The translations under genes and the position numbers were made by a program. The notes beneath the pieces were generated by a model. The model was not told where the DNA came from. It did not search any database and was given only the letters and a program-made list of their open reading frames with translations. From NCBI RefSeq assembly GCF_028281565.1, contig NZ_JANQJQ010000016.1, positions 186,001 through 250,000 on the forward strand: DNA of 64,000 nucleotides. Reading direction: 5' to 3'. The DNA is from Seonamhaeicola sp. GTDB lineage: Bacteria > Bacteroidota > Bacteroidia > Flavobacteriales > Flavobacteriaceae. This document shows positions 22,212-26,254 of this stretch, piece by piece; within the stretch, counting starts at the first letter, position 1; each line of letters opens with the position of its first letter.

Positions 22212-22285
22212 GGTCGCGTAGCTCAGCTGGATAGAGCATCTGCCTTCTAAGCAGACGGTCACAGGTTCGAATCCTGTCGCGATCA
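22212..22285 (+). tRNA. tRNA-Arg (anticodon TCT)
   Basis: The 74-nt cloverleaf is complete. The acceptor stem is GGTCGCG/CGCGATC with one G-T pair, and the D-arm carries AGCTCAGCTGGATAGAGC. The anticodon loop is CTTCTAA (anticodon TCT, reading AGA), and the T-arm is ACAGG-TTCGAAT-CCTGT. The discriminator is A and CCA is not encoded. The last 17 bases of this locus (22270-22286) recur four more times in the next 4 kb, so the gene appears to be an integration target. Confidence 0.97.
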
Positions 22286-22286
22286 C

Positions 22287-22392
22287 GGATAAATAGTTCA
22301 ATAAGAAAAAACGCCAAGTTTACTTGAGCGTTTTTTTGTTTGTACTATTTTCAGCACGGAGTGCTAAGGATATTTAATCCTGTCGCGATCAC
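22287..22392 (+). repeat. First tRNA-tail unit (106 bp), ending in a copy of the tRNA-Arg 3' end
   Basis: The unit begins after the tRNA, contains its terminator and a hairpin AGCAC-GGA-GTGCT with AAGGATATT behind it, and ends with an exact 17-base copy of the tRNA end (AATCCTGTCGCGATCAC, 22376-22392). The hairpin followed by AAGGAT and then the tRNA tail is the same arrangement seen at the right ends of the 22376 and 26076 units, though the first part is unrelated to them. Confidence 0.75.
22305..22338 (+). terminator. Terminator of the tRNA-Arg transcript
   Basis: AAAAAACGCC-AAGT pairs with ACTT-GAGCGTTTTTT around a small loop, with a two-base asymmetry, followed by seven T. It lies 20 bp after the tRNA. 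Confidence 0.8.
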
Positions 22393-22553
22393 AAGAGAAG
22401 CCTGACACTTTGTGTTGGGCTTTTTTTGTGGAACAGCTCAAGTAACATTTAATGTATGGAACACGAAAAAGAACAATAAAGTACGGCTTTAGGGCTTTAC
22501 GTTTGTACGGTAAAGCACTAAGGGATCATTGAAAATAATCCTGTCGCGATCAC
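22376..22553 (+). repeat. Left copy of the 178-bp tRNA-tail repeat
   Basis: It begins and ends with AATCCTGTCGCGATCAC (22376-22392 and 22537-22553). After the first copy comes a strong terminator hairpin (stem AAGCCTGACAC/GTGTTGGGCTT from 22398) with a T run. The first 56 bases are identical to 26076-26131, and the last 31 bases match 26224-26254 with one change. The middle has diverged but keeps ACAATAAAG and a hairpin with CTTTAC/GTAAAG arms. Together with its partner it encloses the 3.5 kb islet. Confidence 0.85.
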
Positions 22554-22663
22554 TAGGCTTGAAACCCAGCCAATAGAGGGGGTGAATTTATACTCTTGTT
22601 TGCTTTGACATATTAGACATCACCTTTTTATGTCAAAATGTATGATTTTTATTGTTGTTTGTT

Positions 22664-23497
22664 TTAGTGTACATTGCCTGCAAATGGATGTTCTGAATCC
22701 TTCGTTTTCTTTTTTTTAATTTGCTCACGTTCCCAAACAGTTGGACTACCAAATAATATCTTCCAAATCATAGCGGGACGTTTCCAAATATCCATGAATA
22801 AATCGCCCCATGCGTGGAATACTAAGTATATTGGATTAAACGAATTAACAGGTTTGGTTATACCATAAACAGCCTGCTCATTTTCCTCTTTAAAAGTACC
22901 GAAGATACGATCCCAAATAATTAGAGTAGAACCATAGTTTTTATCAATGTAATTGGCATTTACGGAATGGTGTACACGATGGTGAGAGGGTGTTACAAAA
23001 ATATATTCAATAGGTTTTGGTAACTTACGTATCAACTCGGTATGTATCCAAAATTGATATAATATTTCGAGTTGATGTACGATAATAAAAACTGTTGGAT
23101 CAAAACTTAGCATAAATACGGGTATAAAAAATACTAGTTTTAAGTTTTGTACCCAAGACAACCTAAATGAGGTAGACAAATTAAAGAAAGAAGAACTGTG
23201 ATGCACAATATGTGTGGACCACCAAAAACGCTGTTCATGAGAAATTTTATGAGACCAATATCTAACAAAATCTAGTGAAAGAAAACATAGCAAATATGAC
23301 CACCATGTATGAGGAATACTCCATGGAGTAAGATTGTAACAAACCACAACAATATAAAAAGTTCCAACTTTTGTAAATGCATTGACAAATAAATTACCAA
23401 AGCCTATTGCAGAAGATGCCAAGAAATCCTTTCCATGATATAATTTCTTTTGTTGTTTAATTGAAAGGTAGTATTCAAGAGCCACTAATGCAAACAT
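22664..23497 (-). CDS. Fatty acid hydroxylase / sterol desaturase superfamily membrane protein
   Basis: The 277-residue protein has several membrane helices and the di-iron histidine clusters of the superfamily: HKISHE near 103, HIVHHSS near 116 and a late HHRVHH near 192. Enzymes of this group hydroxylate or desaturate lipids using oxygen; the substrate is unknown. The first ATG is at 23497. The 31 codons upstream stay open and read like the missing first helix (LLQLDFNTIIWIAAPI), but contain no ATG, GTG or TTG and are preceded by a run of nine A. The gene may therefore have lost its start or be frameshifted. It is the last gene of the islet operon, 132 bp after the sigma gene. Confidence 0.82.
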   Translation of the reverse strand: MFALVALEYYLSIKQQKKLYHGKDFLASSAIGFGNLFVNAFTKVGTFYIVVVCYNLTPWSIPHTWWSYLLCFLSLDFVRYWSHKISHEQRFWWSTHIVHHSSSFFNLSTSFRLSWVQNLKLVFFIPVFMLSFDPTVFIIVHQLEILYQFWIHTELIRKLPKPIEYIFVTPSHHRVHHSVNANYIDKNYGSTLIIWDRIFGTFKEENEQAVYGITKPVNSFNPIYLVFHAWGDLFMDIWKRPAMIWKILFGSPTVWEREQIKKKKTKDSEHPFAGNVH

Positions 23498-23629
23498 AAT
23501 GGGTGCTGCAATCCAAATAATAGTGTTGAAATCTAGTTGGAGAAGTGTTTCTAATGAAAGCTCTTTTTTTTTGATAAAGTATATTGGTTTTTTAAATAAA
23601 CTTATTATTAAATTGACATATGATTTGTG

Positions 23630-24490
23630 TTATAAATACTTTAATAATAGATTAGATCCTTTAGATTTTTTTAGCTTATTGATAGCTTGTTCTTTAATTT
23701 GTCTAACGCGTTCTCTGGTAATTTCGAGCGTTTTGCCTATGTCACTTAATGTCATTGGCGAAACACCTCCAATACCGTAATGAAGCTTGATTATTTCTGA
23801 CTCTCGTTCAGAAAGTGAATTTATAACAGTTCCTAAATCTGTTTGCAATGAGTTGATTAATAAGGTTTTATCCGGTGTATCAAACTCATTGGTTTTAACA
23901 CGATTGTGTAAATTCAAATCGGTATCTTCGGAAAGTGGTGCATCCATAGAGACAGAATACTTGGCATTTTTTAAACAAAGCTCTATTTCTAAAACAGAAA
24001 CTTCAATAATATCAGCAATTTCATCTGCAGATGGAGCCCGGTTGTGTTTTTGTTCAAAAAAAGATGTAGATTCTTTTATTTTATTTATAACACCTATCTT
24101 ATTCAATGGTAACCTAACTATTCTAGAATTTTGGGCTAAAGCCTGTATTATGCTTTGTCTAATCCACCATACGGCGTAGGAAATAAATTTAAACCCTCGT
24201 GTTTCGTCAAACCTTCTGGCGGCTGTAAGTAAACCTAAATTACCTTCATTTATTAAATCGGATAATGCTAATCCTTGGTTTTGATATTGTTTTGCCACCG
24301 AGACAACAAATCTTAGATTGGCCTTAGTAAGTTCATTTAGAGCCTCTTGATTTCCACTTCTTATCAAAGCGGCTAATTCTACTTCTCGTTCAGCATTTAT
24401 TAAACTAAATTTACTAATCTCAGCTAAATATTTAGCTATTGATTCGGTACTTCTAAGTGTAATTTGCTTACTTATATAAAGAGATTTCAT
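23630..24490 (-). CDS. RpoD-like sigma-70 factor (paralogue of the primary sigma)
   Basis: The 286-residue protein has the same length and order of regions as the Bacteroidota primary sigma factor. Region 1.2 (KYLAEISKFSLINAEREVEL), region 2 (ELTKANLRFVVSVAKQYQNQ, then FDETRGFKFISYAVWWIRQS), region 3 (RLPLNKIGVINKI) and region 4 HTH (MTLSDIGKTLEITRERVRQI) are all intact. The conserved DNA-contacting parts are kept, while linkers and region 3 (SFFEQKHNRAP, EIELCLKNAKYSVSMDAPLSED) are diverged, so I read it as an accessory group 2-type copy rather than rpoD itself. It is co-directional with and 16 bp from the NYN gene. It could recognise the usual TAnnTTTG boxes. Confidence 0.88.
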   Translation of the reverse strand: MKSLYISKQITLRSTESIAKYLAEISKFSLINAEREVELAALIRSGNQEALNELTKANLRFVVSVAKQYQNQGLALSDLINEGNLGLLTAARRFDETRGFKFISYAVWWIRQSIIQALAQNSRIVRLPLNKIGVINKIKESTSFFEQKHNRAPSADEIADIIEVSVLEIELCLKNAKYSVSMDAPLSEDTDLNLHNRVKTNEFDTPDKTLLINSLQTDLGTVINSLSERESEIIKLHYGIGGVSPMTLSDIGKTLEITRERVRQIKEQAINKLKKSKGSNLLLKYL

Positions 24491-24506
24491 ATAATACGTT
24501 TAGCGT

Positions 24507-25250
24507 TTATGCAATTATTCTAACATAAATAAGCTTTTGATTAGTTTTTGGATGTTTTCTTGGTTCTATTTCGAATTTACTTATGGAGTTAATTAATGGA
24601 GTTAATTTTTGAAAGCCATAATTTCTAGGGTCAAAATTGGGCTGTTTTTTTTGAAGTAAAGTCCCTACCTCGCCTAAAAACGCCCAACCTTCATCATCTT
24701 CCACATCAGAAATTGTTGTTCTAATTAAATTTACAACTGTTGGTGTGATTTTATCAACTTTAGGTTTGGGTACTTTGGTTTTTGACGTATTATTAATTCC
24801 TTGCTCAGTTTCCTTTTTTAGTATTTCCAAATAAATGAATTTATCACAGGCAACAATAAAGGGGTTAGGTGTTTTCTTTTCACCAATACCATATACAGTC
24901 ATTCCTGCCTCTCTTAGTCTTATAGCCAGTTTTGTGAAGTCGCTGTCACTCGAAACTAAGCAAAAACCATTCACTTTTTTGGAATATAAAATATCCATAG
25001 CATCAATAATCATAGCAGAATCTGTAGCATTCTTACCTATGGTGTAACTGTATTGCTGAATAGGAGTTATGGCGTTTTCAAGTAGAACTTTTTTCCATTT
25101 AGTCAAACTGGGTTTTGTCCAATCCCCATAGATTCTTTTTAAAGTTGGATTACCATATTTAGCGATTTCTTCGAGCAATTCCTTGACATACTTGGAAGGA
25201 ACATTATCGCCATCAATTAAAACTGCTAAATGCTGATTGCTATCCATCAT
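24507..25250 (-). CDS. NYN-domain RNase-like protein with OST-HTH/LOTUS domain
   Basis: The protein (247 residues from ATG 25250) has an N-terminal NYN/LabA-like PIN-fold domain. Its acidic metal-site residues are visible in AVLIDGDNV, NATDSAMIIDAMDIL and LVSSDSDFTKLA. A Lys- and Thr-rich linker leads to a C-terminal OST-HTH/LOTUS RNA-binding domain (about 175-247, GWAFLGEVGTLLQKKQPNFDPRNYG). Proteins of this architecture are thought to bind or cleave RNA; the target is unknown. The ATG lies 2 bp past the bS21 stop codon, so translation is probably coupled. A TTG two codons earlier would overlap that stop. Confidence 0.87.
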   Translation of the reverse strand: MMDSNQHLAVLIDGDNVPSKYVKELLEEIAKYGNPTLKRIYGDWTKPSLTKWKKVLLENAITPIQQYSYTIGKNATDSAMIIDAMDILYSKKVNGFCLVSSDSDFTKLAIRLREAGMTVYGIGEKKTPNPFIVACDKFIYLEILKKETEQGINNTSKTKVPKPKVDKITPTVVNLIRTTISDVEDDEGWAFLGEVGTLLQKKQPNFDPRNYGFQKLTPLINSISKFEIEPRKHPKTNQKLIYVRIIA

Positions 25251-25252
25251 AT

Positions 25253-25447
25253 TCAAATTTCTTGTGAACGCCGATAATCTTCTTTGTATTTCGCTTTTGC
25301 GATTTCTTCTCTTCTTTTGGTAGACTTTTTTGTAAAAGTTTTTTTACTCTTTAATTGCTGTAATTGCTTAGTATTCCTAAACTTTCGTTTGTATCGTTTT
25401 AAGGCTCGATCAATTTTTTCATCCGACTTTATCTTTATAATAAGCAT
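25253..25447 (-). CDS. rpsU: Small ribosomal subunit protein bS21 paralogue
   Basis: The 64-residue basic protein has the bS21 pattern of this phylum (MLIIKIK, IDRALKRYKRKF, then a Lys/Arg-rich helix and a C-terminal segment RREEIAKAKYKEDYRRSQEI). In Bacteroidota, bS21 sits with bS18 and bS6 on the 30S platform and helps to hide the anti-Shine-Dalgarno sequence of 16S rRNA. Here it lies in an accessory operon between a cold-shock gene (59 bp upstream) and the NYN gene (2 bp downstream), so it is probably a second, conditional copy. A tyrosine is kept at position 54, in the part that contacts the rRNA tail as I recall. No Shine-Dalgarno sequence precedes it. Confidence 0.88.
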   Translation of the reverse strand: MLIIKIKSDEKIDRALKRYKRKFRNTKQLQQLKSKKTFTKKSTKRREEIAKAKYKEDYRRSQEI

Positions 25448-25506
25448 AGTTCTTTTGTCTTTTTAAAAAGGTTCATTGACTAAAATGTAACTGCCTCTGT
25501 GTAAAA

Positions 25507-25701
25507 TTAGTTGACGAGTTCAACGTTAACAGCGTTCAAACCCTTTTTACCGTGTTCAACTTCGAATTTAACTTTGTCATTTTCGTTAATTCGATCGATT
25601 AATCCTGATTCGTGTACAAAAATATCTTCTCCATTGTCTGTAGACGTGATAAACCCGAACCCTTTAGTTCTGTTAAAGAACTTTACTTTTCCTTCTTTCA
25701 T
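25507..25701 (-). CDS. CspA-family cold-shock protein
   Basis: The 64-residue single cold-shock domain has both RNA-binding motifs intact (KGFGFIT at about 13-19 and EDIFVHES near 25-32) and ends KGLNAVNVELVN. Csp proteins bind single-stranded RNA and melt structure, acting as RNA chaperones. It is the first gene of the islet operon, ahead of the bS21 paralogue. A gene-free stretch of 370 bases lies upstream before the right repeat, long enough for the extended leader often found on cold-induced csp mRNAs. Several paralogues are usual in this phylum. Confidence 0.94.
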   Translation of the reverse strand: MKEGKVKFFNRTKGFGFITSTDNGEDIFVHESGLIDRINENDKVKFEVEHGKKGLNAVNVELVN

Positions 25702-26075
25702 AATTTTAAAATTTGATTTGTATTATTATTATCTATACGAGTCAAAAAATAAGAGTGATTAAGTGTGAATGATCAACCTAATATTGAAACCTCTTAGTAA
25801 CTGTATAATATTGGCTAGCAATAAAAATTAAAATAGAAAGGAGTTAAATGGAAGTATAAAAATCTTTGCTAAAGAAACAGTTTCGCTAATCACTACAAAG
25901 AACAACATTTAAACTGGAATAATCTAATTCCTATCATTATAATTAAAGAATTTTTCAAATTTGTATTTGCCGAAAATCAGAAACATATCTAAATCGGTTA
26001 ACAAATCGGTCAGCAGTTGCAAGAATAAACATTAAAAGTGTAGTAAATATATGGGATGAGAGAGAGATTAGTTCT
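25702..26075. other. Gene-free leader region upstream of the csp operon
   Basis: This AT-rich stretch between the csp start and the right repeat has no convincing coding sequence. It must contain the operon promoter on the minus strand, but no clean CAAAnnTA (reverse of TAnnTTTG) was found. The nearest is CAAATTTG at 25956-25963. A long structured 5' leader is plausible for a cold-shock mRNA but cannot be shown by eye. Confidence 0.4.
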
Positions 26076-26254
26076 AATCCTGTCGCGATCACAAGAGAAG
26101 CCTGACACTTTGTGTTGGGCTTTTTTTGTGGCATAAGCCCAATATCCTTTGAGGTTTGTGGCACAAAAAAAGTACAATAAAGCACAGCTTTCAGGCTTTA
26201 TGCTCGTACTGTAAAGTACCGAAGGATCATTGAAAATAATCCTGCCGCGATCAC
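26076..26254 (+). repeat. Right copy of the tRNA-tail repeat (179 bp)
   Basis: It is the partner of 22376-22553, starting with an exact 17-base tRNA-Arg 3' end (26076-26092) and ending with a one-mismatch copy, AATCCTGCCGCGATCAC (26238-26254). The same terminator hairpin lies at 26098-26127. The middle (26132-26223) is recognisably related to the left copy, including ACAATAAAG and a CTTTA/TAAAG hairpin, but carries many substitutions. Both conserved ends face the flanking tRNA tails. Confidence 0.85.

Follow-up and report, generated by a model that had tools for sequence, protein, structure and literature searches.

How did genes for a cold-shock protein, a bS21 paralog, an NYN/OST-HTH protein, and an RpoD-like sigma factor, accompanied by a fatty acid hydroxylase gene, come to lie in the tail of a tRNA-Arg gene in Seonamhaeicola sp., and do they act together? 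The window analyzed here is a stretch of 64,000 nucleotides (G000:C42:186001-250000), part of a draft genome of 5.27 Mb (G000). With moderate confidence, we explain the locus as an accretion array at tRNA-Arg(UCU) in which a small mobile genomic islet carries an expression-machinery module. The mobility of the islet is very likely. Its boundaries are set by copies of the tRNA 3' end, arranged as follows (att, attachment site; CIME, cis-mobilizable element).

22212..22286, plus strand: intact tRNA-Arg(UCU) (ARAGORN, anticodon TCT; Rfam tRNA, 72 bits)
22270-22286, plus strand: tail copy 1, the tRNA's own 3' 17 nt, AATCCTGTCGCGATCAC; attachment core and proximal att site
22287..22375, no strand: microCIME-like unit flanked by tails 1 and 2, 106 bp from start to start
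22376..22392, plus strand: tail copy 2, exact 17-nt match
22393..22536, no strand: microCIME-like unit flanked by tails 2 and 3, 161 bp from start to start
22537..22553, plus strand: tail copy 3, left boundary of the islet, exact 17-nt match
22554..26075, no strand: islet proper, a CIME-like cargo segment with tails 3 and 4 on either side and a homologous islet in G005
26076..26092, plus strand: tail copy 4, right boundary of the islet, exact match
26093..26237, no strand: microCIME-like unit flanked by tails 4 and 5, 162 bp from start to start
26238..26254, plus strand: tail copy 5, one mismatch

The tRNA-Arg is the single tRNA found by ARAGORN in the window, and the start-to-start distances between the tails are 106, 161, 3539, and 162 bp. 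Because no 17-nt tail match occurred in 100 dinucleotide shuffles of the window, a chance origin of the repeats is ruled out. The initial annotation described two related repeats, each starting and ending with the tRNA 3' end. These are the 161- and 162-bp units, which are paralogous (84% over 182 bp); an additional 106-bp unit adjoining the tRNA, with a hairpin that by eye looks terminator-like, had been omitted. Apart from the tRNA, no known RNA of the Rfam type was found within the islet, one other match being far below the gathering score.

The islet contains five genes, all on the minus strand, and a conserved leader.

22664..23497, minus strand: fatty acid hydroxylase superfamily protein, accessory (Pfam FA_hydroxylase, 4e-28; start uncertain)
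23630..24490, minus strand: RpoD-like (group-2 type) sigma factor, 286 aa (Pfam sigma-70 regions 1.2, 2, 3, and 4)
24507..25250, minus strand: NYN and OST-HTH/LOTUS protein (Pfam NYN, 7e-40; OST-HTH, 1e-19)
25253..25447, minus strand: bS21 paralog, 64 aa (Pfam Ribosomal_S21, 1e-10; NCBIfam above cut-off)
25507..25701, minus strand: cold-shock protein, 64 aa (Pfam CSD, 3e-18, profile positions 2-65 of 66)
25800..25950, minus strand: conserved noncoding leader upstream of the module's first gene, limits approximate

All five families had been named from the sequence alone and are confirmed by Pfam. The gaps between the genes, given as 2-132 bp for most of them, are 59, 2, 16, and 132 bp, with the NYN gene counted from the ATG at 25250 (a TTG at 25256 is likewise open). 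The csp, rpsU, NYN, and sigma genes are open and match their Pfam profiles at nearly full length. The bS21 paralog belongs to the S21 family, scoring above the curated cut-offs of both Pfam (41.3 bits, cut-off 27) and TIGR00030 (32.4, cut-off 28.95). The NYN/OST-HTH protein is, by family, a probable ribonuclease.

The key evidence for mobility comes from the genus. Here and below, the relatives are mostly draft genomes with open reading frames called by a simple script, and the samples comprised 397 genomes of the family, 326 of the order, and 7 of the genus. The islet is present at tRNA-Arg(UCU) in two of the seven genomes of the genus (G000 and G005) and absent at tRNA-Arg in the other five (G001, G002, G003, G004, and G006), which is the patchy occurrence among close strains that the initial annotation had proposed to look for. 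In G005, which belongs to another species, the order outward from the tRNA is a gene with a cold-shock domain (149 aa), a hydroxylase remnant, sigma, NYN, rpsU, csp, and a tail copy. This distal tail has two mismatches, lies 3352 bp from the tRNA's own tail, and is followed by ATCAACCCTCACTAG..., the terminator-like sequence found directly after tRNA-Arg in G004. The latter genome, a sister of G005, provides a clean empty site for the G005 islet, with flanking genes common to both.

The DNA of the two islets is 82.9% identical over 2451 bp (23645-26093), and the blastn homology stops at 26093, that is, at tail copy 4. A further match covers a 177-bp piece of the hydroxylase gene, and the left ends of the islets differ. 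The upstream flank of the window copy (galactose genes and a symporter) is common to G001, G002, and G006. The downstream DNA differs in each of these genomes, and therefore the window copy itself has no clean empty site.

The tree of the 3.8-kb rpoD locus (one locus) pairs G000 with G002 and G005 with G004 (support 1.0 for each pair), and these sisters of the two carriers lack the islet. At four-fold degenerate sites, the islet genes of G000 and G005 are identical in 15/19 positions for csp, 6/11 for rpsU, 38/72 for NYN, and 41/84 for sigma. The pooled value is 100/186, versus 181/540 for a yardstick of seven core genes at one locus compared between the same genomes (Fisher p=1.4e-6); for sigma and NYN only, 79/156 silent sites are identical (p=1.6e-4 versus core). 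Since the silent sites of the islet are more alike than those of the core, the islet has probably moved between the two species. The islet proteins have 84-89% amino acid identity (NYN 89%, sigma 86%), far above the silent-site identity of NYN (53%) and sigma (49%), and thus both genes are under constraint.

The search for further relatives was based on the sigma factor. Its clade was found in 7/397 genomes of the family, the window's own included, and the same seven were obtained with two different queries; the search in the genus adds G005 and G001, yielding nine sigma-clade modules. The nine sigma factors form a single clade (support 100/99), apart from RpoD and other paralogs, and those of the window, G005, and G247 group together at 99/95. 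In the order-wide sample, three of 326 genomes gave matches: that of the window and two in which a sigma gene with 61% identity stands alone, without a module. The sigma gene of G189 and G368 (60-61%), a lone gene with neither a module nor a tRNA, was not counted. No sigma of the islet clade is among the best 80 matches in genome contigs (top 60%) or the best 80 in viral contigs (top 51%). Plasmid records contain 504 sigma matches, all below 60% identity, and 370 NYN matches, 7 of them at 60-80% identity and 363 lower.

Copies of a tRNA tail bound five of the nine modules, at three different tRNA genes. In G247, which has the nearest islet from another genus, csp, rpsU, an NYN remnant, sigma, and hydroxylase are bounded by tRNA-Leu(UAA) on one side and on the other by a tail copy whose last 13 nucleotides are identical. 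An integrase gene (Phage_integrase, Phage_int_SAM_5) is located inside this islet beside the distal tail, together with a peptidase-like gene and small frames. In G023, three other genes, sigma, an AraC-type regulator, and small proteins lie between tRNA-Pro and a tail copy, and an integrase gene split in two is found beside the tRNA. The element of G023 is shared with G001, a member of the window's genus, with 88.6% identity over 6.0 kb and 94.3% over 1.19 kb; the homology stops at the same tRNA-Pro tail copy, after which the DNA differs. The tRNA is not seen in G001 because the contig starts inside the element. Silent sites of these two genomes, which represent two genera, are identical at 347/465 positions in the element versus 15/58 in one putatively orthologous gene outside it. 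Sigma is the sole module gene in both. Thus, relatives of the islet with varying gene sets appear to have moved between genera.

The initial annotation called the islet integrase-less, and this holds for the window's contig: a search limited to tyrosine recombinases (PF00589) found none on C42 or on C3, and ten on other contigs of G000. The lack is not intrinsic to such islets, as G247 has an integrase and G023 a split one, so that the absence in the window copy looks like decay. The suggested history begins with integration of a tyrosine-recombinase element at a tRNA 3' end, an anatomy seen in the relatives. The integrase of the islet would have been lost later, and tandem integrations and deletions, as the repeats suggest, may have left gene-less att-flanked scraps on both sides.

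Other observations concern the array and similar sites. At G000:C3:8536 (L081 8536-8552), a tRNA-Arg tail is followed by the native post-tRNA terminator-like sequence, without a tRNA (which is on C42). Located 1.7 kb beyond it is the gene, presumably encoding a methyltransferase, that comes after tRNA-Arg in G004 and G005. Either a large island of more than 70 kb, from the end of C42 to the start of C3, separates the two, or the tails were the site of a chromosomal rearrangement. In G002, the closest relative of G000 on the one-locus tree, a gene begins 190 bp downstream of the same tRNA-Arg (L076 7498-8706) that encodes a tyrosine integrase comprising arm-binding, SAM-like, and catalytic domains, a candidate helper for this site. 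In G425, a unit of 158 bp (start to start) lies between two tail copies on the reverse strand after tRNA-Leu(UAA) (L313). This is the tRNA that hosts the G247 islet, and microCIME-like scraps are thus not limited to the window.

Is the cargo of the islet a functional module? It consists of the leader, the cold-shock protein, the bS21 paralog, the NYN/LOTUS protein, and the group-2-type sigma factor, in this order behind the leader, and it is likely co-regulated. The leader is about 130 nt long. Relative to the window, it is 91% identical over 157 nt in G005, 88% over 120 nt in G247, and 69% over 139 nt in G127, and the noncoding DNA flanking it is unalike in G247 and G127. It is placed and oriented alike in all nine modules as well as in two further genomes, G172 and G407, the first gene being csp, rpsU, or sigma. 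Matches with E-values of 5e-5 or better for at least one of three queries were obtained in G005, G247, G127, G405, G001, G391, G172, and G407. We interpret the leader as a putative shared promoter/operator region. A candidate CUUURY/RYAAAG stem, in which covariation seemed visible by eye in the window, G391, and G405, breaks in the others and is not claimed. Eight of the 11 leaders were also folded one by one, and no common fold was visible by eye.

On its plus strand, the leader carries TAGAAAGGAG-TTAA-ATG-GAA-GTA-TAA (window 25834-25860), an extended Shine-Dalgarno (SD) sequence before a three-codon frame, which is identical in G005 and G247. A strong extended SD is unusual in this lineage, where mRNAs mostly lack SDs. 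Because of this sequence, the opposite strand of the leader resembles the 16S 3' end. The anti-SD-like CTCCTTTCTA was rejected as a conserved element, since it is exact only in the window, G005, and G247 and degraded elsewhere.

Gene content of the nine modules varies: sigma occurs in nine, as expected for the search query, csp in six, rpsU in five, intact NYN in four, and the hydroxylase at intact length in two and as a remnant in another. The hydroxylase, listed by the initial annotation as one of the set, proved to be an optional member. Five relatives with 79-85% identity (G155, G211, G186, G394, and G135) and three with 63% (G285, G377, and G203) lie outside islets, with no tRNA in 17 kb, ruling it out as a core member; three more distant matches are in G331, G111, and G132. 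The gene may have joined the module late. Its start in the window is uncertain, as the 44 open codons before the first ATG hold no ATG, GTG, or TTG, yet by eye the frame there still resembles the N-terminus of the relatives.

In 4/9 modules, the sigma factor is accompanied by an AraC-type regulator of 186 aa (Pfam HTH_18; L251 10206-12104, L254 11384-12804, L253 10426-11935, and L080 5113-7385). The same four also encode a small protein without a Pfam match, which we take to be cupin-like, and one or two further family-less small proteins. The regulator and the small proteins are possible members of the sigma factor's regulon.

What could such a module do? The islet sigma factor is 59% identical to the housekeeping RpoD, encoded at G000:C30, and belongs to a separate clade. 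It has sigma-70 regions 1.2-4 and is a paralog of RpoD with RpoD-like recognition regions, as in group-2 sigma factors; the NCBIfam RpoD-type and RpoS models score it alike (234-245 bits), all below their cut-offs. The motifs YAVWWIRQ and TRERVRQI, presumably corresponding to regions 2.4 and 4.2, are RpoD-like, and hence the islet sigma probably recognizes promoters similar to those of RpoD. The occurrence of its clade in few genomes of the family fits dispensability.

For bS21, the background comes from PMC9976891, where translation initiation of this lineage is reported to depend on bS21 hiding the anti-SD. In Flavobacterium johnsoniae, bS21 is reported to be autoregulated, with bS21-free ribosomes acting by way of an extended SD, and deletion of the bS21 C-terminus or a change of Tyr54 to raise translation of strong-SD reporters; the replacement of bS21 paralogs by one another is put forward there as a hypothesis (PMC9976891). 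All five module bS21s have a tyrosine at position 54, as read by eye. The housekeeping rpsU of the window's genome has the extended SD GGGAGGTTAAG. By eye, it is absent before all five module rpsU genes and all four other accessory ones, and the islet gene thus lacks the signature of autoregulation.

Combining these observations, we consider a stress-type switch of sigma factor and ribosome, close to the coordinated switch for cold or stress that the initial annotation had suggested, possible, although somewhat short of probable. A signal acting via the leader would turn the module on. The islet sigma could then compete with RpoD for core polymerase at RpoD-like promoters, the bS21 paralog, translated from an mRNA without an SD, would fill ribosomes, and the cold-shock and NYN proteins would reshape RNA structure and turnover. 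Since bS21-less ribosomes boost rpsU translation via the extended SD in F. johnsoniae, a paralog that fills them should turn the housekeeping rpsU down and swap the bS21 of the ribosome; this takeover step is doubtful. Slightly less likely again is the complete scheme, a horizontally transferred "expression takeover kit" in which a signal read by the leader leads to replacement of both the sigma factor on polymerase and bS21 on ribosomes. In this scheme, the islet bS21 would escape the Bacteroidia-specific extended-SD feedback and silence the housekeeping rpsU through the same feedback. If true, it would switch the whole decoding population of the cell.

Several observations weigh against a mobile, co-regulated module. 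The yardstick for transfer is one core locus, and the silent identity of csp and rpsU could be inflated by their codon bias. Three congeners of G247 lack the islet at the same tRNA, but their downstream flanks differ and none has a clean empty site. Four of the nine modules have no detectable bounding tail copy, and the gene content varies. Among these four, the G127 module adjoins tRNA-Pro without a second tail, the G391 module lies between two tRNA-Lys genes, and the G274 module is near a contig end. In G405 (L255 4473-10002), rpsU-NYN-sigma lie with a Fic-family gene (Pfam) and what we take to be a HipA-like gene, downstream of a gene that is presumably mnmE. The locus is possibly another integration hot spot, and a duplicated mnmE end was looked for there, with none convincing.

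The module itself is also less uniform than its order suggests. All of csp, rpsU, NYN, and sigma are intact in only three of the nine modules (window, G005, and G127), and therefore a fixed kit is not the rule. Some parts are decaying: the hydroxylase of G005 and the NYN gene of G247 are remnants, and the hydroxylase of the window has no ordinary start. The leader match is weak in G023 (3e-4) and in G274 (8e-4, the level of the first unrelated loci), and no match exists at the sigma-rpsU pairs of G004 and G005 described below. RNAalifold finds no pairs, and hence no conserved RNA fold, in the leader on either strand. A promoter of the Bacteroidetes consensus precedes none of 19 islet or module genes; in all, it was found before 1 of 20 genes, the housekeeping rpsU, versus 0.47 expected by shuffling. 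Finally, the order csp-rpsU-NYN-sigma occurs in G172 in a chromosomal operon, beside genes that we take to be clpX and its neighbors, with no tRNA in the 17 kb read.

Three other explanations can be considered. The one that survives best, although improbable, is that the islet is a decaying passenger, left stranded by a larger mobile element, with genes that serve no current function in the host. The lack of a tyrosine recombinase on the contig, the microCIME-like scraps around the islet, the missing hydroxylase start, and the partial gene loss in sister islets are what such a remnant would leave, but four genes with open frames that match nearly full-length Pfam profiles, purifying constraint on NYN and sigma, and a conserved leader speak against it. 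A little less probable is that the module serves the element and not the host, redirecting transcription and translation to genes of the element or a phage. Phages encode bS21, which has been proposed to redirect host ribosomes (PMC9976891), and the G247 islet contains an integrase; however, no phage structural family was matched in that islet among the families tested, and only 7 of 50,697 records of the phage collection have NYN matches, all below 60% identity. Vertical descent of an ancestral chromosomal operon csp-rpsU-NYN-sigma, lost in most genomes and joined by separate, later tRNA tails, is very improbable: G172 and a sigma-rpsU pair at the same chromosomal place in G004 and G005 favor it, although the gene order of the pair is reversed, but G005 has both the pair and the islet with sigmas of different clades, and tail-bounded modules at different tRNA genes, silent-site identity above that of the core, and the absence of the islet from the sisters of both carriers contradict it.

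A fixed locus with the same order and no tails, named in advance by the initial annotation as the sign of an ancestral operon, thus exists in G172 and not for the islet clade. The pairs of G004 and G005 start with sigma, and their sigmas do not group with that of G172; we do not claim them as relics of its operon. Similar sigma-rpsU pairs are present in records of Psychroserpens, Yeosuana, and Algicola, where their place was not checked. In G407, csp-rpsU-NYN occurs without sigma, and a 15-mer near it resembling tRNA-Ala with one mismatch is a single match. The cargo of the mobile islet may be derived from a chromosomal operon like that of G172.

The mobile-islet explanation touches two open topics, ribosome heterogeneity via bS21 paralogs and mobile cargo that rewires core gene expression. 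Under it, the islet would be a natural transferable unit in which one conserved leader precedes coupled genes for a sigma factor, a ribosomal protein, an RNA chaperone, and a probable RNase. In the literature searched, no account of the csp-rpsU-NYN-sigma gene set was found among the matches listed, nor any publication pairing an NYN domain with ribosomal protein S21.

Some parts of the islet have known counterparts. Group-2 (RpoS-like) sigma factors are, as a class, second sigmas with RpoD-like recognition regions; the islet sigma differs in having its own clade in the family. The macromolecular synthesis operon of E. coli, rpsU-dnaG-rpoD, likewise combines bS21 and a sigma-70 gene, whereas the islet has no primase, carries paralogs rather than housekeeping genes, and is mobile. 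An integron-like cassette array was rejected, as the contig has no tyrosine recombinase and tRNA tails account for the repeats; no dedicated model was used to look for attC sites.

The closest structural analogy is provided by CIMEs, which PMC7563491 and PMC5704250 describe as att-flanked cargo at the 3' end of a target gene without an integrase of their own, and by gene-less, att-flanked microCIMEs of 130-220 bp in tandem. The islet is similarly att-flanked (tails at 22537 and 26076) within an array at tRNA-Arg, and its five genes belong to cargo families only, the search for tyrosine recombinases having found none on C42 or C3. Of the gene-less units, those of 161 and 162 bp fall within the microCIME range, and the 106-bp unit is below it. 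CIMEs are, however, described in streptococcal arrays of integrative and conjugative elements (ICEs) and integrative and mobilizable elements (IMEs), whereas the cargo here is expression machinery. CIMEs derive by deletion from ICEs or IMEs and can be mobilized in cis after accretion. The related islet of G247 has an integrase and no relaxase among the genes tested and resembles a mobile genomic island.

Among Bacteroidota IMEs, NBU1 is placed at tRNA-Leu and Tn6031 at tRNA-Pro (PMC5704250). Elements with tRNA-targeting tyrosine integrases share with the islet the target at the tRNA 3' end, duplication of the tail, and an intact target gene. The difference is that the window copy has no integrase, and the relatives tested gave no match to mobilization genes. 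For the bS21 autoregulation and anti-SD sequestration of F. johnsoniae (PMC9976891) and the bS21 homologs of Francisella (PMC9578407), the likeness is a paralog that has tyrosine 54, plausibly enters ribosomes, and alters mRNA choice. The differences are that the gene of the islet paralog lacks the extended SD and that a mobile islet carries it together with a sigma factor gene.

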